Source: an uncultured Flavonifractor sp.
Lineage (GTDB): Bacteria > Bacillota > Clostridia > Oscillospirales > Oscillospiraceae
Direction: 5' to 3'
Assembly (NCBI RefSeq): GCF_944387675.1
Contig: NZ_CALXFV010000002.1
Coordinates: forward strand, 1-56,495
DNA length: 56,495 nucleotides
Shown: positions 3,365 through 56,495 of the stretch, one piece after another
How the letters are laid out: every line of letters begins with the position of its first letter
Numbering within the stretch: position 1 is the stretch's first letter
The notes under the pieces: model-generated
What the model was told of the DNA's origin: nothing
The model's input: only the letters and a program-made list of their open reading frames with translations
The model's database searches: none
Program-made: the position numbers and the translations under genes

Positions 3365-4843
3365 TCACAATATGATACAGATAAGGCCGCCGGAGCCTTC
3401 GTTGATGATGCGCTGGAGGGTCTCCTGCAATTTGGCCCGGGCGTCCTCCGGCATCCGTTTGAGCTTGCCGTTGAGGTCTTCACTCACCAGCTCATGGAAG
3501 GACTTTCCGAAAATGTTGGACTGCCAGATGGCCTTGGTGTCCCCCTCAAACTCCTGGAGAAGGAAATTAACCATTTCCTCGCTCTGTTTCTCGTTGCCCA
3601 CGATGGGCGAGACCTCGGTCTCAATATCCGCCCGGATCATATGGATGGAGGGGGCGGAGGCCTTCAGCCGCACTCCGTAGCGCCCCCCCTGCTTGACGAT
3701 TTCCGGCTCCTCCAGCACCAGCTCGTCGGTGCTGGGGACCACAATGCCGTAGCCGGTGGCCTTGACCTCCTCCAGGGCGCCGGAGACCTTGTCGTACTCC
3801 GCCTTTACGTGGGACAGCTGGCTGAGCAGCTCCAGCAGGTCGCCGTCGTCGTGGACCGCAAAGCCGGACTGCTGGGAGAGGGTGTCGTAGAACAGCTCCC
3901 TGGGCAGCTCCAGACGGGCGGCCGACAGGCCGGTACCCAGGCTGATGTTGGTGATGGCGGCGCTGCTCACCCAGTCGCAGCCGCCGATGGCCTCCACCGT
4001 TTTTTCCACGTCCCGCACCCGGCGCATACCGGCGGCCCCCTCCCGGATGGCGGCGTACAGGCCGCTTTTGATGGGGTGGTCATAGGGCAGCGCATCCACC
4101 CAGGGGGGAAGAAACAGGTCCAGCTCCTTTACTGGGAACTCATAGAGCACTCCCTTGATGATCCTGGTCACCGCCTCCTCGTCCAGCTGAAGGCAGTCGG
4201 CGCACACCACCGTCACGTCATAGCGGGAGGCCAGGTCCGCCCGGATGGCTCTGGCCCGGTCGGAACTGGGGTCAGCAGAGTTGAGCACCACCAGAAAGGG
4301 CTTTCCCAGCTCCTTCAGCTCGTGGATCACCCGCTCCTCTGCCTCCAGATAGTCCTCTCGGGGAATGTCTGTAATGGTGCCGTCGGTGGTGACCACAATG
4401 CCGATGGTGGAGTGCTCGGCAATCACCTTCCGGGTGCCGATCTCGGCGGCTTCCGTCATGGGAATCTCATAGTCAAACCAGGGAGTGGTCACCATGCGGG
4501 GGCTGTCGTCCTCCATGGAACCCACGGCGCCCGGCACCAGATAGCCCACGCAGTCTATGAGCCGCACGGAAAAGGAGGCGCCGTTCTCCAGGTCAATCCG
4601 GACGGCCTCCTCGGGGACAAACTTGGGCTCCGCCGTCATCACGGTGCGGCCGGAGCCGCTCTGGGGCAGCTCATCCCTGGCCCGCTCCTTCCGGTATACG
4701 TTGTCAATGTTGGGGATGACCATGGTCTCCATAAACCGTTTGATAAATGTGGACTTTCCCGTGCGCACCGGCCCCACCACGCCGATATAGATATCCCCCT
4801 CGGTACGCAGGGCGATATCCTCATAGAGCTTGCGTTGTTCCAC
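3365..4843 (-). CDS. spoIVA: Stage IV sporulation protein A, coat morphogenetic ATPase
   Basis: ATP-hydrolysing protein that polymerises on the outer forespore membrane to form the coat basement layer. 492 residues from GTG 4843, the typical size of SpoIVA. Walker A is GPVRTGKST at 24-32; the conserved C-terminal tail GGLICIIL is present. An upstream in-frame TTG (4849) lies only two bases from AAGGAGG, whereas GTG 4843 is eight bases away and gives an opening (EQRKLYEDIALRTEGDIY) that lines up with family N-termini. It follows sipL and spoVM on the same strand; a sigma-E-like promoter lies just upstream, so it may be transcribed separately. Confidence 0.98.
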   Translation of the reverse strand: MEQRKLYEDIALRTEGDIYIGVVGPVRTGKSTFIKRFMETMVIPNIDNVYRKERARDELPQSGSGRTVMTAEPKFVPEEAVRIDLENGASFSVRLIDCVGYLVPGAVGSMEDDSPRMVTTPWFDYEIPMTEAAEIGTRKVIAEHSTIGIVVTTDGTITDIPREDYLEAEERVIHELKELGKPFLVVLNSADPSSDRARAIRADLASRYDVTVVCADCLQLDEEAVTRIIKGVLYEFPVKELDLFLPPWVDALPYDHPIKSGLYAAIREGAAGMRRVRDVEKTVEAIGGCDWVSSAAITNISLGTGLSAARLELPRELFYDTLSQQSGFAVHDDGDLLELLSQLSHVKAEYDKVSGALEEVKATGYGIVVPSTDELVLEEPEIVKQGGRYGVRLKASAPSIHMIRADIETEVSPIVGNEKQSEEMVNFLLQEFEGDTKAIWQSNIFGKSFHELVSEDLNGKLKRMPEDARAKLQETLQRIINEGSGGLICIIL

Positions 4844-49725: not shown

Positions 49726-49748
49726 ACCTCCTTTTTATTCCCGGCATA
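49726..49748 (+). promoter_or_regulatory. Possible sigma-K-like promoter of the collagen-like gene
   Basis: AC (49726-49727), 17 bp, CATA (49745-49748), resembling the AC / CATA elements of late mother-cell sigma-K promoters, about 50 bp before the ATG at 49797. No sigma-A-like promoter was seen in this gap. A 6-bp TGTGGC/GCCACA hairpin follows in the leader. Short motif, so chance occurrence is possible. Confidence 0.3.
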
Positions 49749-49796
49749 AACTGTCATGTGGCACAGCCACAAGCCAAGCGGATAAAGGAGTATATC

Positions 49797-50309
49797 ATGA
49801 ATCACTATCATCCCACCGACTGGGAGTGGAAACGGAAGCAAGAGGGCGCAGCCTGCTGCTGTCCGCCGGGCTGCTGCCCGCCCCCCTGTCCACCTCCCCG
49901 TCCCATTCCAGGTCCTACCGGCCCCACTGGTCCCACCGGTGCTGCCGGAGCGACTGGTCCCACCGGTCCCACCGGACCCGCCGGCACGGGAGCCGCCGGA
50001 CCCACCGGACCCACCGGTGCGCAGGGTCCCACCGGACCTGCCGGACCTGCCGGACCCGCCACCCCCGGCCCCACCGGCCCAGCGGGAGCGACTGGTCCCA
50101 CCGGACCAACCGGCCCCCAGGGTATCCCCGGTCCGGACGGCGCCACCGGGGCGCTTTGCATAGGAAAGGCAACGCCCTGTAAAAACGCGGTTTCTTATCA
50201 AACCGCCTCGTTGTGGGGATTGAGCTCCATAAATCCTTCCAGCCGGCGCAGCTCGTCGGCAAAGCGGAACACAATGCCGATCTTTCCGCCCTCATACACC
50301 TTGATATGA
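49797..50309 (+). pseudogene. Collagen-like surface protein, 5' part, interrupted by mobile element
   Basis: ATG 49797 has AAAGGAG six bases upstream. The protein opens [17 protein letters not shown], then a Cys/Pro-rich head ([16 protein letters not shown]), then Gly-X-Y triplets rich in GPT, GAT and GPA from about residue 39 to 118, the pattern of BclA-like exosporium and surface filaments. The repeat ends abruptly at 50149 and reads on into element sequence ([14 protein letters not shown]...) to a stop at 50309, giving a 170-residue truncated product. The repeat resumes in the same frame at 56302. Excision of the element would rejoin them. Confidence 0.88.
50144..50149 (+). other. Left junction (attL) core CACCGG
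   Basis: CACCGG is the longest sequence shared by the two boundaries (also 56301-56306). It falls in codons GCC-ACC-GGx of the collagen repeat. Just inside the element, AGGAAAG (50162-50168) mirrors CTTTCCT (56289-56295) at the other end, so the reconstructed attP has an inverted repeat roughly centred on the core. CACCGG is frequent in this repeat, so the exact exchange point is inferred. Confidence 0.6.
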
Positions 50310-51880
50310 TCCACCAGCTCAATGAGAATGTCCCGCGTCAGCCTGTCGATATTCTGATTCTGGCGAAATGCGGTCAAACATGGGTTTTCGGTGTCCACGC
50401 CGTTTTTCAGCTCCGACTGTTCTGCCCGGAGGGTTTGCAGCACTTTCTCCAGAGCCTGGGCCCGCTGCTCATAGTCCTCTTTCATGTGTCGGTACTCCGA
50501 GCGGCTGATTTCTCCGTCCTTCCAGTCCTGATAGATCAACTGCCTGTAGCGGGAGATTTTCGATAGCTCCCGTTCTTTTTGTTTTATCGCATCCATTACC
50601 TTCCGGGACTGGCCTTTTTCCAGCGGGGTCCGGCTGATCCGCTCAATGATCCCGGCACAGTCCACCGCCAGATAGACCTGCTGCTGAATGGCGCAGAGGA
50701 CAGCGGCCTCCAGGCGGTCATGCTTGATGGTATGTTTGGTGCAGGCTGTTTTGGATTGGTCTTTATAAGTACGGCAGTAGTAGTACACCACGCCGTCCAC
50801 CTTGCTCCGGCTCATGGCCTTGCCGCAGTCGGCACATTTCAGAAACCCGCTGAACAGATACAGCTTTTTCTGCCGGGGGCCTGTGCGGGTGGCCCGGTTC
50901 AAGAGACGCTGCACCTTTTCAAACGTGTCCCGGTCAATAATTGCCTCGTGCGTGTTTTCCACGATGTACCATTCCTCTTTGGGAACCACCTCTTGAATAT
51001 GCACCTTGTAGCTTTTTTTGCGGTAGCGCCCCTGCACCATATCCCCGCAGTACATCCGGTTTTTCAAGATGGTAGTTACCGACATTGCGCACCACAAGGG
51101 CCGTTTCGCGGGATCAATGCTGGGGTTTTGGTAGTTCAGCCCCAGGCGTTCCCGTTTGTAGGCGGCGGGACAGAGAACACCGTGCTCGTTGAGATAGTGG
51201 ACAATGGCATTTTTACTCATGCCGTCCAGGAACATGGAGAAGATCTCCCGGACAACGGCAGCGGCTTCCTCGTCCACCACCAAGGCGTTTTTGTCGCCCG
51301 GATCCTTGAGGTAGCCATAGGCCGCGAAGGAGCCGATGTGCTCCCCGTTGCGGCGTTTCATGTCAAATACCTCCCGCACCTTGTCAGAGGTTTCCGCACA
51401 ATGGTTTTCATTGAGCACCCCCTGGATGGGAACCGCGATGCTCCGCATATTTTGGGGCTCTTTGTAGCTGTCCAGGGGCTGGTGAAACAGAGAAATAAAA
51501 CGGACCTTGTACCGGGGGAACCAGTCATCCAGATAATAGCCCTGATCGCTGTAATTACGGAAGGAACGGGCCAGGTCTTTGACGATCACGCAGTTCACGC
51601 GTCCCCGCTTGATGTCGGCCAGCATCCGCTGAAAATCATCCCGCTCATCATCCGTTGTGCCGGAAATGCCGTCATCCACATATTCGTCCACAATCATGTA
51701 CTGGTCGCCGTCGTGAAAGGCGGCGATATGCTCCTCAATGATTGCCCGCTGATTGGTGACGCTTTCGGATTCGTACAGACAGCGAGTGTCCTCTCTGGAA
51801 AGGCGGATATAGATGGCGATCCTCCACACCCGTTCCTTTGGAGCAGCGGCGTGAACGGCGGCTCTGTTTGTTCGCTCCAT
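50198..51880 (-). CDS. Large serine recombinase
   Basis: 560-residue site-specific recombinase of the TnpX/SpoIVCA-like group. N-terminal resolvase domain (about 18-165) with catalytic Ser28 in YIRLSRED and the arginine block DLARSFRNY; recombinase domain (about 190-300, [20 protein letters not shown]); zinc ribbon with [11 protein letters not shown] and [13 protein letters not shown]; long C-terminal coiled coil (about 420-490) that governs integration versus excision. Intact, no frameshift. GGAGGG lies just before the ATG at 51880, 12 bp after the small ORF. It ends beside the left boundary, the usual place for an att-adjacent integrase. Confidence 0.96.
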
Positions 51881-51892
51881 GCGCTTCCCTCC

Positions 51893-52156
51893 TTAAAGTC
51901 CGCTCTTTTTTCGCCGAAAGAACTCGAAAAGGGCATCCTGTAAGGATGGGACGCTGTCCAGAAACTCCAGCTGAACACCCAAGTCTCCCACGCGGAAACA
52001 GTAGGGATTCCCCGTCGCTTTTAAGAGATGCCCCGCCCGAAGTTTCCGTGGGATGCCGGGATCAAGAGCCAGACCGCTGACATCCGTTAATTCATCCTTG
52101 TTTATCTTCTGAATCTCAACACTTGCCAGCTCCAAGCGCGTGATGGGATCATTCAT
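51893..52156 (-). CDS. Small recombinase-associated protein
   Basis: 87 residues from ATG 52156 (GGGGGG seven bases upstream). Sequence begins MNDPITRLELASVEIQKI and includes NPYCFRVGDLGVQLEF and a C-terminal basic FFRRKKSGL. The NPYCFRVG-type core resembles small proteins (DUF6870-like) that sit beside serine recombinases in Clostridial elements; family assignment is from memory and uncertain. Being co-transcribed immediately upstream of the recombinase, it could be a directionality factor or a regulator, which is untested. Confidence 0.7.
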   Translation of the reverse strand: MNDPITRLELASVEIQKINKDELTDVSGLALDPGIPRKLRAGHLLKATGNPYCFRVGDLGVQLEFLDSVPSLQDALFEFFRRKKSGL

Positions 52157-52583
52157 GCGTATTCCCCCCTTCCAATCATAGTTATGGCACAATTGCTTGT
52201 CCCATGATGGATCGGGCAATTCCGTATGAGATTCCCGCGTTGTCAAGGGATGCGGCAGATGGTATAATAACCGGCAAGAGCTGGATCGATTTTCCCTTAT
52301 GGATCTGGCGGCACCATCGCTGCAAAAGCAGAGATGTTTCATGCGGCCCAGGCAGACAACCGGAGGCCCGCGGCAGATTATGCCCTCCGCGCAGGCATCC
52401 TCGCTCGGTCGAACGGTCTGCATCTGGGGAAAATTCATCAAGCCAAACTGCGGAGCTCTGGACCAGACTCAGAACTTATGAGCTGCGCTTTTCCACCTCT
52501 GCCAGTGGTCCGGACCGCTTCCGGCAGGACTCTCAGGGAACTTTTGAGATCGGATCTGAAGCAAAGACAAGGAGGAATGAGAG
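52157..52583. other. Gene-free divergent region and long leader
   Basis: Separates the recombinase unit (leftward) from the alkylsulfatase (rightward). It holds the plus-strand promoter at 52240-52268 and about 310 nt of leader. A weak minus-strand candidate for the recombinase unit is GGGACA, 17 bp, TATGAT near 52170-52200. Short open frames on either strand have no recognisable similarity and no ribosome binding sites. Confidence 0.5.
52240..52268 (+). promoter_or_regulatory. Sigma-A promoter of the alkylsulfatase
   Basis: TTGTCA (52240-52245), 17-bp spacer, TATAAT (52263-52268). Near-consensus. The predicted start point near 52275 leaves a leader of about 310 nt before the ATG at 52584. 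Confidence 0.75.
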
Positions 52584-54581
52584 ATGAAGCATTGGAAACC
52601 GTGGGTGTCCGTTCTCTGCCTGATGGGTATGACGGTCTCCCTCCTCTCCGGTTGCCGGGAGGCTCCGGCGGCGGACAGCGAGGCATCCGCGCTGAACGGG
52701 GAGCAGAAGGGCGCCACCCAGATCACCGCCCAGCTCAACCAGGAGGTATACGCTTTGCTGGACTTTGACGACCAGCAGGAGCTGGAGTTTGCCCAGCGGG
52801 GCCTTATCAGCGCCCCGGAATCTTTGGAGCTGCGGGACGAGAGCGGCAAAGTGATCTGGAGCCAGGACGCCTACGCCTTCCTGGAGGATGCCGACGCCCC
52901 CGACACCGTCAACCCCAGCCTGTGGCGCAACACCCAGCTTAACCACATCTACGGCCTGTTTGAGGTGATTGACGGCATCTACCAGGTCCGGGGCTACGAT
53001 ATGTCCAACATCACCTTTGTCAAGGGAGAAACCGGCTGGATCGTCTTTGATCCCCTCATGTCGGTGGAATGTGCTCAGGCCGCCAAGGAGCTGGTAGATG
53101 AGCAGCTGGGTGAGTATCCCATCATGGGCGTTATTATCAGTCACTCTCACGTGGACCACTTCGGCGGCATCAAGGGCATTGTCTCCGAGGAGGAGGTGGC
53201 GGAGCGGAACATTCCCATTATCGCCCCCGAGGGCTTTGAGGAGCATGCCATCAGCGAAAACGTGTACGCCGGAACCGCCATGGGCCGCCGGGCGGCCTAC
53301 CAGTACGGCACCCTGCTGGACAAGGATGAGGAGGGCGCCATGTGTATCGGCATCGGTATGGGCCAGTCTAAGGGTACCCTGTCCTACCTCTCCCCCACCG
53401 ACATCATCTGTGAGACCGGTGAGATCCGGGTCATCGACGGGGTTACCTTTGAGTTCCAGATGACTCCCGGCACCGAAGCCCCCGCCGAGATGAACACCTG
53501 GCTGCCCGAAAAGAACGCCCTGTGGCTGGCGGAGAACTGCACCGGCACCCTGCACAACCTGTACACCCTCCGGGGCGCCCAGGTTCGGGACGGCAATGCC
53601 TGGGCCAACTACATCATGGAGGCCCTGGCCCGCTACGGCGGGCAGGCCCAGGTAGTGTTCCAGTCTCACAACTGGCCTCACTGGGGCAGCGACGTGATCC
53701 AGGAGTATATGGAGAACACGGCGGCGGTGTACAAATTCATCCACGATCAGACTCTCCTATACATCAATCAGGGCTACACCGAAACCGAGATCACAGATAT
53801 GATCCAGCTGCCCGCGGACCTGGAGAAAGTGTGGTATACCCGCCAGTACTATGGTACGCTGAAACACAACGTCAAGGCGGTCTACCAGAAGTACATGGGC
53901 TGGTACGATGCCAACCCCATCCACCTGGATGAGCTGGCTCCCACGGAATACGCCCAGAAGCTGGTGGAATATCTGGGGGACACGGACAAGGTGCTGGAGA
54001 TGGCCAAGGCGGACTTTGAGAAGGGCGAGTACCAGTGGGTGGCGGAGATTACCAACGCCCTGGTATACGCGGACCCGGAAAATCTGGACGCCCGCTACCT
54101 GTGCGCCGACGCTCTGGAGCAGCTGGGTTATCAGGCCGAGTCCGGCCCCTGGCGCAACGCCTACCTCACCGGCGCCCAGGAACTGCGCAGCATGCAGCCG
54201 CCTGCCTCCAATCCCATGAGCGGTGCCGCGGAGATGCAGATGAAAATGGGCGTGGATCTCATGCTGGAGTATCTGGGCATCCGCCTGGACAGCAATGCGG
54301 CGGAGGACCTGAACGGCACCATCAACCTGGTGGTCACCGATCTGGAGGAAGCGTATGTGATCACTCTGCGCTCTGGAGTGCTCCTCTATCAGGAAGACGT
54401 TCAAAGCTCTGAGGCCGATGCCACCTGGAGCATGCCCAAGGCGGCTCTCTTCGCCTTGCTCCAGGGCAATGCGGACGGCGTGCGGCAGGCAGCGCAGCTT
54501 CAGGGCGGCGAGGATCTGCTGGACTCCCTCTGTGCGCATATCCAGATCTTTACGCCTGATTTTGCGATCATCGAGCCGTAA
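52584..54581 (+). CDS. Lipoprotein alkylsulfatase, metallo-beta-lactamase fold
   Basis: 665-residue SdsA1/BDS1-type (class III) zinc alkylsulfatase, predicted to cleave alkyl sulfate esters outside the membrane. Signal peptide with lipobox LLSGC (lipidated Cys24). Metallo-beta-lactamase domain about 125-345 with SHSHVDH (His187, His189, Asp191, His192); further conserved AENCTGTLHNLYTLRGAQVRD and QSHNWPHWG; then the alkylsulfatase dimerisation domain (about 390-530) and a C-terminal sterol-carrier-like domain (about 540-660). ATG 52584 has GGAGG eight bases upstream. Intact cargo of the element; unlike type I sulfatases it needs no maturase. Confidence 0.93.
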   Translation: MKHWKPWVSVLCLMGMTVSLLSGCREAPAADSEASALNGEQKGATQITAQLNQEVYALLDFDDQQELEFAQRGLISAPESLELRDESGKVIWSQDAYAFLEDADAPDTVNPSLWRNTQLNHIYGLFEVIDGIYQVRGYDMSNITFVKGETGWIVFDPLMSVECAQAAKELVDEQLGEYPIMGVIISHSHVDHFGGIKGIVSEEEVAERNIPIIAPEGFEEHAISENVYAGTAMGRRAAYQYGTLLDKDEEGAMCIGIGMGQSKGTLSYLSPTDIICETGEIRVIDGVTFEFQMTPGTEAPAEMNTWLPEKNALWLAENCTGTLHNLYTLRGAQVRDGNAWANYIMEALARYGGQAQVVFQSHNWPHWGSDVIQEYMENTAAVYKFIHDQTLLYINQGYTETEITDMIQLPADLEKVWYTRQYYGTLKHNVKAVYQKYMGWYDANPIHLDELAPTEYAQKLVEYLGDTDKVLEMAKADFEKGEYQWVAEITNALVYADPENLDARYLCADALEQLGYQAESGPWRNAYLTGAQELRSMQPPASNPMSGAAEMQMKMGVDLMLEYLGIRLDSNAAEDLNGTINLVVTDLEEAYVITLRSGVLLYQEDVQSSEADATWSMPKAALFALLQGNADGVRQAAQLQGGEDLLDSLCAHIQIFTPDFAIIEP

Positions 54582-54601
54582 CGATGGATCTCCTACAAGA
54601 A

Positions 54602-54875
54602 GGATGGCGGACTGCATCGCCATCCCCAGTCTGTCGAAAAACCTTCCTCAGAGGAAGCCTCGCAGAGTTCCGTCGCCCGCAGGCGACGGAATAAAATCAA
54701 AATCCGTCATTTCCGGGGACATGTGCCTCGGAAATGACACTTCTCATGACGGATGGGGTGACTTTTTCGCAAGAAATCGAGCCCCATCCGTCATGCAGCC
54801 TCTTGTCGAAAAAGGCACATGTGCCTTTTTCGACAGTCTCAGGATGGCGGACTGCATAAATGCAGTCCGCCATCC
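54602..54875. repeat. Palindrome array with 16-bp terminal inverted repeats
   Basis: 274 bp after the alkylsulfatase. GGATGGCGGACTGCAT (54602-54617) is repeated inverted at 54860-54875; inside that, CTGTCGAAAAA (54631-54641) is inverted at 54826-54836. Separate hairpins: 10-bp arms 54668-54677/54682-54691, 10-bp arms 54706-54715/54729-54738, 14-bp arms 54745-54758/54782-54795, a perfect 32-bp palindrome 54804-54835, and 16-bp arms 54842-54857/54860-54875 followed by CCCTTTT, which can terminate the alkylsulfatase transcript. Non-coding; same architecture as 29862-30131 but unrelated sequence. Confidence 0.7.
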
Positions 54876-54900
54876 CTTTTCATATGGTGGGCCATTCTGC

Positions 54901-55454
54901 TCAAGTACTTTCTTTCCAGTCGGCCAAAACCCGGGCAAAAAAGCGCTGATAGCCCTTGCACAGGTAATTTTTTCCCCCGCTGAGCCGGCCCTTTGGGCAG
55001 CCGCCGAAGCACAGCCGCACAGCGGGTCGTGGACGCACAGGATGGAGGGCAGGCCCTGGAGATGCCCCAGCGTGACATCAAACAGCTTCACATGGAGCTT
55101 CCCCACGTCCTGTCGGAGCCACTCCTCCCAGACGGCACACAGAAACTCGCCGTACCCCTCCGGCGTGACGGAGAAAGGGGCAACCGGATGGGGCATTCCC
55201 AACGGGTGGATCCCGGGCGGGGTGGCCGTACGCTGCCCCATATCCGTCTCATACGCAGCAGGCAGGGCCTCCACTACGGGAAGAAACTGGATGTAGTCGG
55301 TAAGCCCGCGCAGAAAGCGGTAGACCTCCAGGGGATATTTCATGTTGGCCCGGTTGACCATGGTCAGCGCGCTGAAGGGAACGCCATGCCGCCGCAGCCG
55401 CCGGACGCCTTCCATCGTGGCTTGAAAGGACCTGGAGCCGTCCTCCCTCGTTCG
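54901..55454 (-). pseudogene. Anaerobic sulfatase maturase remnant
   Basis: Pieces of an anSME radical SAM enzyme, which converts a Cys/Ser of type I sulfatases to formylglycine. Recognisable: MVNRANMKYPLEVYRFLRGL, TDYIQFLPVVE, PEGYGEFLCAVWEEWLRQDV, KLFDVTLGHLQGLPSILCV, then, in a different frame, CFGGCPKGRLSGGKNYLCKG and a stop at 54901-54903. The N-terminal radical SAM CxxxCxxC domain is missing, an internal segment (about 70 residues) is deleted, and the frame shifts before the C-terminus. It is joined in frame to the sulfatase remnant. Confidence 0.8.
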
Positions 55455-55999
55455 ATACAGATTGTGGAGCTCCTCAGGGTCCTGGTTGAGATCAAAGAGC
55501 CGCACATCGTTTTTCTCATAGAGTTCCTCAATTGTGGTGGGGGTATTGAACTCCAGCGGAGAGAAGTAGCGCACAAACTTATAGTCTTCCGTGATCAGTC
55601 CCCGCACCATGCCCCGGATGGAGAGATCCGCCTGATAGCTCATCGTCTTGTCCGGATTTACGTCCACCTGGACCGCACTCATCAGCAGCGACTCATAGCA
55701 GAACAGCGCGCCGTCCCGGACAGACTCCTTGGAACCGTCCATCAGATCCATCAGGCTGCTGCCGGGAAGCCCCTGGCTGAGCTACGCCTTTTCCGCATCG
55801 TCCAGACCGGTCATATCCAAAAAGGTGGGCGCCAGGTCCAGATGGCTGGTGAGGGCAGAGATCGTCCGCCCACCCTCATATTCCGGGTGAACGATGTACA
55901 AGAGGGTACATGGACGCAGTTTTCGTAGTAGTAATCCTGATAATCCTTCCAGCCATCCTCGCTGGTGACCGAGCCGGTGTACACGCTCCACTCTTCATT
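55455..55999 (-). pseudogene. Type I sulfatase remnant, C-terminal part
   Basis: C-terminal fragment of a formylglycine-type sulfatase. In order: WKDYQDYYYENCVHVP, a frameshift near 55904, then HPEYEGGRTISALTSHLDLA, PTFLDMTGLD, an in-frame TAG at 55784-55782, LPGSSLMDLMDGSKES, TEDYKFVRYFSPLEFN and LFDLNQDPEELHNLY. The catalytic N-terminal half with the C/S-x-P-x-R motif is absent. After EELHNLY the frame runs straight into the maturase fragment, so a deletion appears to have fused two neighbouring genes. Confidence 0.8.
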
Positions 56000-56151
56000 G
56001 TATAATTTCCATCTTCGTTTTTGACTGCCTCCCGGGCGGGCGCTTGGCTGCTCTCTGGAGCAGCAGGCTGACAGCCCGATAAGGAGCATGCGGAGGCCGC
56101 CGCCAGTGCGGTTGCCGCAAAGCGCAGTCTCGCTTAGTTGGTATGTCGCAT
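56000..56151 (-). pseudogene. Lipoprotein N-terminus remnant
   Basis: ATG 56151 with GGGAGG nine bases upstream reads M-R-H-T-N and then a TAA stop; the same frame continues ARLRFAATALAAASACSLSG and C, a lipoprotein signal peptide with lipobox, then QPAAPESSQAPAREAVKNED. It therefore looks like a secreted lipoprotein (perhaps the start of the sulfatase, perhaps another gene) killed by a nonsense codon and later frame changes. Confidence 0.55.
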
Positions 56152-56300
56152 ATGTGCTCTCCTCCCTTCCCTCTATCTGGCGCCAGGCCTGCCGGCGGAC
56201 GGCAAGCCCCAGATGCATTGTAAGATAAAATATAATATTTTTACAGAAGAATCAATCCCGGCGGTATTCCCTGGCGGGCATGCGCCCACTTTCCTTGTTT

Positions 56301-56306
56301 CACCGG
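56301..56306 (+). other. Right junction (attR) core CACCGG
   Basis: Second copy of the boundary hexamer. Upstream of it the element ends in an AT-rich stretch (56220-56250) and CTTTCCT (56289-56295), the inverted partner of AGGAAAG at the left end; from 56220 to 56300 no gene was seen. Downstream the collagen frame resumes at ACC 56302. Confidence 0.6.
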
Positions 56307-56495
56307 CCCCACCGGACCCACCGGACCTCAGGGCATTCCCGGCCCGGACGGCGTCACGGGTCCCACCGGACCTGCCGGTGCCGCCGGAGCAACCGGTCCC
56401 ACCGGACCTGCCGGTGCCGCCGGGGCAACCGGTCCCACCGGACCTGCCGGTGCCGCCGGAGCAACCGGTCCCACCGGACCTGCCGGTGCCGCCGG
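56302..56495 (+). pseudogene. Collagen-like surface protein, 3' part, start-less, runs off window
   Basis: Open Gly-X-Y frame from 56302 to the window edge: [20 protein letters not shown], then a 36-bp unit encoding the 12-residue period [12 protein letters not shown] repeated about three and a half times from 56368. Going upstream in frame there is no ATG, GTG or TTG before the stop TAA at 56233, and no ribosome binding site, so this is not an independent gene. It is the continuation of the gene that starts at 49797. Confidence 0.88.

Follow-up and report, generated by a model that had tools for sequence, protein, structure and literature searches.

A recurrent serine-recombinase element that splits collagen-like genes and may be excised in sporulation

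The stretch of DNA analysed here (the window: 56,495 nucleotides (nt) of an uncultured Flavonifractor sp., contig NZ_CALXFV010000002.1 of assembly GCF_944387675.1) contains a collagen-like gene whose coding region is interrupted by an element carrying a large serine recombinase. Comparison with other genomes places this element in a recurrent family with a conserved two-gene core, a well-supported conclusion that lies beyond what the preliminary description, made from the window alone, could see. What can be read in the DNA itself is a gene in two parts, ends of att type, alleles without an interruption, a frame that is restored on rejoining, occurrence of the arrangement in further species, a conserved gene pair and promoter-like motifs. 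These features suggest a mechanism that we hold to be probable, if by no means assured, as a whole. Mobile serine-recombinase elements would integrate where collagen-like spore-surface genes of the BclA type encode Gly-Pro-Thr-Gly, leaving the gene split meanwhile. During sporulation, an operon of a DUF6870 gene and the recombinase gene would be switched on in the mother cell from a σE/SpoIIID-type promoter; the DUF6870 protein would steer the recombinase towards excision; the rejoined collagen gene would be transcribed from its own σK-type promoter; and the forespore would retain the element. Excision, its timing, the cell type and the role of DUF6870 are what we infer, and mother-cell excision is the most likely, though unproven, reading of how the element works.

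The 5' half of the gene (49797-50149, forward strand) matches Pfam Collagen, and its orthologues within the genus occupy the same position next to trxA and trxB. It begins with a leader (quoted as 17 residues) and a Cys/Pro-rich stretch, and Gly-X-Y repeats follow. The Gly-X-Y frame breaks at 50149, and the repeat restarts at 56302 with the 3' half (56302-56495, forward strand), which is cut by the contig end. A shared core, CACCGG, is present at 50144-50149 and again at 56301-56306 (both forward strand), and removal in silico of 6,157 base pairs (bp) at this core gives a continuous in-frame repeat, just as the preliminary description had proposed. That account was also right about two further points: the recombinase is intact, an open reading frame (ORF) of 560 amino acids (aa) at 50198-51880 with no internal stop; and the right half has no start codon, the frame leading into it containing no ATG between the last stop and the repeat. 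At the position of the split, relatives carry a protein doublet (24 letters), of which one copy is found in each half of the window's gene.

The left element arm follows the GG of the core with 12 nt and AGGAAA (50150-50167, forward strand), a GG-N12-AGGAAA geometry common to loci L072, L074, and L075. The right arm, TTTCCT-N9-GG (56290-56306, forward strand), has the same geometry in L074 and L075. The recombinase gene stands 49 nt from the left core, and so near one element end. Because the shared stretch is CACCGG in the window and only GG in L074, the exact crossover bases are not fixed.

The window is an entire contig (C2) of a fragmented assembly (168 contigs, 86% complete), and it ends inside the repeat. 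Another contig of this assembly, C7, opens within that repeat and continues in frame through a 142-aa tail to a stop; the next gene, by our reading, encodes a glycosyltransferase, as does the gene that follows the intact allele in genome G010. The C2-C7 match (100% over 32 nt, 97% over 37 nt) consists of repeat units rather than a unique overlap, and the bridge between the contigs, which falls in the repeat, is unassembled. Further DNA of C7 is syntenic with the intact G010 locus (79.6% over 1,051 aligned positions and 81.9% over 5,968). Where it can be read, therefore, the 3' part is neither out of frame nor broken beyond the window; either defect would, according to the preliminary description, have been fatal to its proposal.

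Uninterrupted alleles in related genomes, which that description had suggested looking for, do occur. The locus next to trxA was compared in 20 genomes of the genus. Its collagen-like gene runs intact to the stop in seven (G001, G003, G007, G010, G012, G016, and G018), is interrupted in three (the window, G008, and G013), and is unreadable in the remaining 10: two run off the sequence (G014 and G019), six have no readable leader, and in two the gene was not found. G008 and G010 make a close pair, with flanks 92.7% and 89.1% identical; G008 has a 13.9-kilobase (kb) element in the same gene and G010 has none. The G013 gene meets an element end like that of G008 (88% identical over 142 nt), and there its contig stops. 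Given these alleles, the att-type ends and the open recombinase, an excisable-looking serine-recombinase element in a collagen-like gene is a description that stands.

The same arrangement recurs well outside the genus. A genome scan with five recombinases yielded 587 relatives, and in 21 of the best 80 the recombinase end adjoins collagen-like coding DNA; a script called 19 of these, and L076 and L134 were recognised by eye. Among the 78 loci with enough sequence, Gly-X-Y coding DNA lies no more than 250 nt from the recombinase stop in 19, to be set against nine hits among 2,578 windows at a distance of more than 4 kb. Members of Paenibacillus, Lacrimispora, Lachnotalea, Faecalispora, Kineothrix, and Flavonifractor are among the hosts. 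Two types of end can be told apart by their arms: TTTCCT...AGGAAA in type A, to which the window's element belongs, and TTGTGCATA...TATGCACAA in type B (G008 and G013). Counting C7, 16 of 17 3' halves are open through a tail of 34-180 aa before the stop; the other, L141, stops 2 aa past the repeat. A search with a 12-row alignment (E <= 1e-120) found relatives in nine of 398 genomes sampled across the phylum and 61 of 394 sampled across the order, the window's own genome being in both. These samples supplied 40 new loci (L172-L211; L171, also fetched, belongs to the window itself). The script places 10 of the 40 next to collagen-like DNA, with G008 recurring among the 10; L189 and L200, which look collagen-like by eye, were counted as other.

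In a recombinase tree of 83 rows, the 22 collagen rows are spread over both main halves, requiring seven changes, and one group of 50 rows inserts elsewhere than in collagen genes. (In another group of six rows, L126-L130 and L139, we read the DNA after the recombinase stop as resembling the Walker A motif of an ATP-binding cassette (ABC) transporter; the Walker A codons at that site resemble Gly-Pro-Thr-Gly DNA.) L150, on plasmid CP141730.1 of Oscillospiraceae bacterium MB08-C2-2 (54024-71718), has a recombinase 66% identical and both arms (TTTTCCT and AAGGAAA) close together around CCGG after the recombinase, perhaps an unused attP. A phage origin of the element was considered and rejected: two scans of viral contigs gave nine relatives of the window's recombinase (P0001) and none of the G008 recombinase, and none of the seven of the nine with sequence after the recombinase has Gly-X-Y there.

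The two genes of the core lie side by side on the reverse strand of the window. The recombinase (50198-51880) has the Pfam domains Resolvase, Recombinase, and Zn_ribbon_recom; upstream of it is an 87-aa DUF6870 protein (51893-52156; Pfam PF21757, 1.9e-19). A DUF6870 homologue precedes the recombinase in 74 of 86 loci (among which L143 and G008 are one element), and in six of the 12 loci lacking it the sequence available upstream is shorter than 350 nt. The new loci, reduced to 26 for the promoter test below, repeat the pattern (six of six collagen loci and 18 of 20 others). In the smallest element, the 2,322-bp L075 of Lacrimispora algidixylanolytica SPL73, the recombinase and DUF6870 are the only ORFs of at least 75 aa on the recombinase strand, and two short ORFs are on the other. 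DUF6870, of which the open-access literature searched makes no mention, is a candidate recombination directionality factor (RDF).

When would such an element leave? Both the collagen gene and the recombinase operon carry promoter-like signals. Upstream of the genus orthologues of the collagen gene, AC[AC]-N16-CATA lies 71-79 nt before the ATG in 12 of 12 regions, with differing spacers (chance about 1-4% each); in the window it is ACC-N16-CATA at 49726-49753 on the forward strand. The elements of σK promoters in Bacillus subtilis are 14-16 nt apart (PMC517825), and bclA1-3 of Clostridioides difficile are σK-controlled (PMC3789822). The preliminary description had called the gene BclA-like and exosporial. 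This is upheld in part: the σK-type promoter agrees with it, as does the tail of another interrupted gene, L086, which matches Pfam BclA_C at 5.5e-43, whereas the BclA_C match of the gene's own tail falls below the cut-off. On the strength of that promoter and of a BclA-like tail below cut-off, the collagen gene is a putative sporulation gene.

Before the recombinase operon, type A elements share a recurrent block, TCATAGGACAA...CATATATT, and type B elements another, TCATATCGTACAAG...GCATATTCT. For promoter counts, 78 upstream regions were reduced to 43 non-redundant ones. A first, stricter pattern occurred in 6 of the 21 regions from collagen elements, against 2 of 52 from other loci and none of the 5 ABC regions, and looser forms were tried afterwards. 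The σE-like pattern [GT][AC]ATA-N16-18-CATA is present in 12 of 19 non-redundant collagen elements, where shuffles predict 0.57, and in 2 of 23 others, where 0.15 would be expected; the single ABC region lacks it (0 of 1). The two positive others, L087 and L150, group with collagen elements in the tree. Among the new loci it occurs in four of six collagen loci (0.18 expected) versus four of 20 others (0.42 expected). The σK pattern is found before the operon in none of the 19 collagen elements, so that collagen gene and recombinase operon differ in promoter type. None of the 43 regions matches a simple vegetative pattern (TTGAC...), which is weak evidence.

The window's own block, TCATGGGACAA-N-CATA (52179-52207, reverse strand), resembles the sigK promoter of its own genome. 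In the genus that promoter reads TATAGGGACAAAC...GGAATACAGT, with a GGACAA-N-ATA block in 12 of 13 genomes, the window's included. GGACAA-N9-12-ATA is found in 12 of 21 collagen elements (again including the window) versus two of 57 others, and in four of the 40 new loci, of which L183 alone is collagen-adjacent by script. (At L177, G425:C68, recombinase genes stand next to one another, with the same TCATAGGACAATCC...TTTCATA block upstream.) Taken together, the two promoter signals favour sporulation control.

Several observations weigh against this reading. The σE-like pattern was picked after seeing the data, so that only the run on new loci tests it on fresh data, and there it also marks the four non-collagen loci. 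In its own block the window departs from the strict σE-like pattern, with ATG in place of ATA, and the type B block is less like a SpoIIID box. GGACAA resembles the B. subtilis SpoIIID box. The C. difficile SpoIIID consensus, KRTAACARK, fits the GGACAA block less well (PMC5025042). The loci are related, and their counts are not independent. The C7 tail matches BclA_C at 4.3e-7 and 30.3 bits, below the gathering cut-off of 38. Finally, Mediterraneibacter catenae carries, outside a collagen gene, a stretch that is 99.9% identical to 6.68 kb of the G008 element, and L148 has a recombinase identical to that of collagen element L147 yet sits elsewhere. The elements are thus mobile, and at times they miss their target. 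For skin-like developmental excision, as the preliminary description envisaged it, the promoter motifs and other split sporulation genes in the genus speak in favour, and the excision step is one that we infer.

The alternative that survives best is that these are ordinary mobile elements landing in widespread Gly-Pro-Thr-Gly DNA, with excision rare and for transfer only, and with the collagen gene lost until the element leaves. We think this unlikely, though far from negligible. It fits the occurrence of near-identical element stretches both in two bacterial families and away from collagen genes, the many other insertion sites used by part of the recombinase subfamily, and the G008 element with its second recombinase, DUF3801, and DUF6017 genes. 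It fits less well with a σK-type promoter on the target gene, a sigK-like block on the recombinase operon, 3' halves that stay open in 16 of 17 cases, and very small elements without transfer genes.

Serine recombinases with a directionality factor can excise and reintegrate reversibly. Phase variation, in which excision and reintegration would toggle the surface collagen in part of a vegetative population, could draw on this general capability and on the precise, in-frame reversible site. Excised circles without a replicon would be lost, however; the target promoter looks sporulation-specific; and nothing here points to vegetative expression. We regard it as very improbable, and the on/off switch of a surface protein that the preliminary description offered as its second option found no specific support. 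An assembly chimera, or a simply dead gene, is scarcely credible: the assembly is fragmented, its contig ends in a repeat and the C2-C7 bridge is unassembled, but in sequence and spacing both element ends fit the ends of related elements, each outer flank shows synteny with intact alleles, isolate genomes have the same arrangement (on which grounds a chimeric assembly was rejected), and the 3' part is open to a stop.

Other sporulation genes of the genus also appear to be split. The sigK gene looks split right after LVAHI, as with skin elements, in the window's own genome and six more of the 13 read (G004, G007, G008, G009, G016, and G017); the loci are L156 (G000:C76), L157 (G008:C1:241500-261000), and L216-L220. 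The sigK model found no match at its cut-off in any of the 20 genomes, nor in the B. subtilis control, and the gene was therefore identified by sequence and split position. The spoIVA gene lies in the window at 3368-4840 and is over the cut-off in 18 of 20 genomes. In G002 it is in two pieces about 46 kb apart (C13:22670-23881 and 70213-70494; L158 and L159), and the 3' piece has a recombinase frame of 555 aa next to it; G009:C226 (L160) has a spoIVA 3' piece arranged as in G002, with a recombinase at the junction; and in G015 the two pieces are on different contigs.

Between core and right arm, the window's element carries cargo. An alkyl-sulfatase-type gene (52584-54581, forward strand, 665 aa; Pfam Alkyl_sulf_dimr, 3.1e-59, and Alkyl_sulf_C) has a homologue in G013. 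It is followed by a dispersed short repeat with inverted parts (54612-54844, strand unassigned), found at four further places in the same genome and at many in other genomes of the genus, and by a decayed sulfatase/sulfatase-maturase remnant (54920-55993, reverse strand); the window ORF 54744-55751 matches anaerobic sulfatase maturase at 1.1e-33, below cut-off. The homologous DNA of G013 has open frames of 604 and 382 aa, the former by our reading a sulfatase; because of these, the window's cargo is seen as decaying, while the collagen halves, recombinase, and DUF6870 remain open. Among the five element proteins scanned with Pfam and NCBIfam (some small ORFs, and PHROGs, lay outside the scan), no phage structural or replication gene was found, and the only matches were recombinase, DUF6870, alkyl sulfatase, and maturase. 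The G008 element has a second recombinase with DUF4368 (L060:12654-16311), plus DUF3801 and DUF6017 genes, and for this reason may be a mobile element inside another.

There is also a bolder generalization, whose chances we put at about even: that a two-gene unit of DUF6870 and serine recombinase, widespread, minimal and sporulation-timed, repeatedly colonises collagen-like spore-surface genes across the Bacillota, with DUF6870 as a family-level directionality factor. Such a landing site would cost the host little, because the element would be removed in the doomed mother cell. The two-gene minimum and promoter-like signals in keeping with the host programme make the persistence of such elements testable, and DUF6870 gains a hypothesis of function. 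Moreover, a collagen-like spore gene that seems broken in a genome may become whole once its element is excised, and split genes of this kind are hidden by repeats at contig ends.

No published description of such elements was found in the open-access literature (subscription journals and preprints were outside the scope). In the main text of a study of multi-targeting large serine recombinases, the word "collagen" does not occur (PMC10083194). In the accessible text of a survey of C. difficile BclA proteins, "interrupted" refers to assembly breaks and "recombinase" is absent (PMC13188886). The multi-targeting recombinases and TndX share the domain plan of P0001, which is 33.7% identical to TndX of plasmid records, and relatives of P0001 also insert at many sites; P0001 has no DUF4368 match, in contrast to the 63% of the multi-targeting clade that do (PMC10083194).

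Further parallels come from intervening elements of sporulation genes. The skin element of sigK, in B. subtilis and C. difficile, is likewise a large serine recombinase element that splits a mother-cell gene. The excision genes of skin are under σE and SpoIIID: spoIVCA of B. subtilis needs SpoIIID, and in C. difficile an RDF governed by σE and SpoIIID restricts excision (PMC517825, PMC5025042). Here, by contrast, the target is collagen-like, no phage genes were noted, the two genes form an operon-like pair, and excision is presumed. The SP-β prophage in spsM of B. subtilis likewise interrupts a spore-surface gene that is restored by a serine recombinase and a small RDF (PMC4191935). SP-β is an active prophage with SOS induction, whereas L075, at 2,322 bp, is a two-gene element that occurs naturally. 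It comes near to an engineered minimal SP-β, which needs no more than the recombinase and a 58-aa RDF to be excised during sporulation (PMC4191935). The gin element in gerE of Bacillus cereus ATCC10987 is likewise non-phage, and is excised in sporulation by the serine recombinase GirC and the 42-aa RDF GirX (PMC5595907); unlike the window's element, it is 28.6 kb long, has three recombinases, and sits in a regulator gene. The yin element in yabG of Clostridium botulinum, a serine recombinase element with growth-phase dependent excision, is also in a spore-coat related gene, and was reported as unique (PMC10747680); it is prophage-like, whereas the elements considered here recur in one type of gene. 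Intervening elements in sporulation genes have so far been described as single cases; here, one recombinase subfamily is found in the collagen-like genes of many species.

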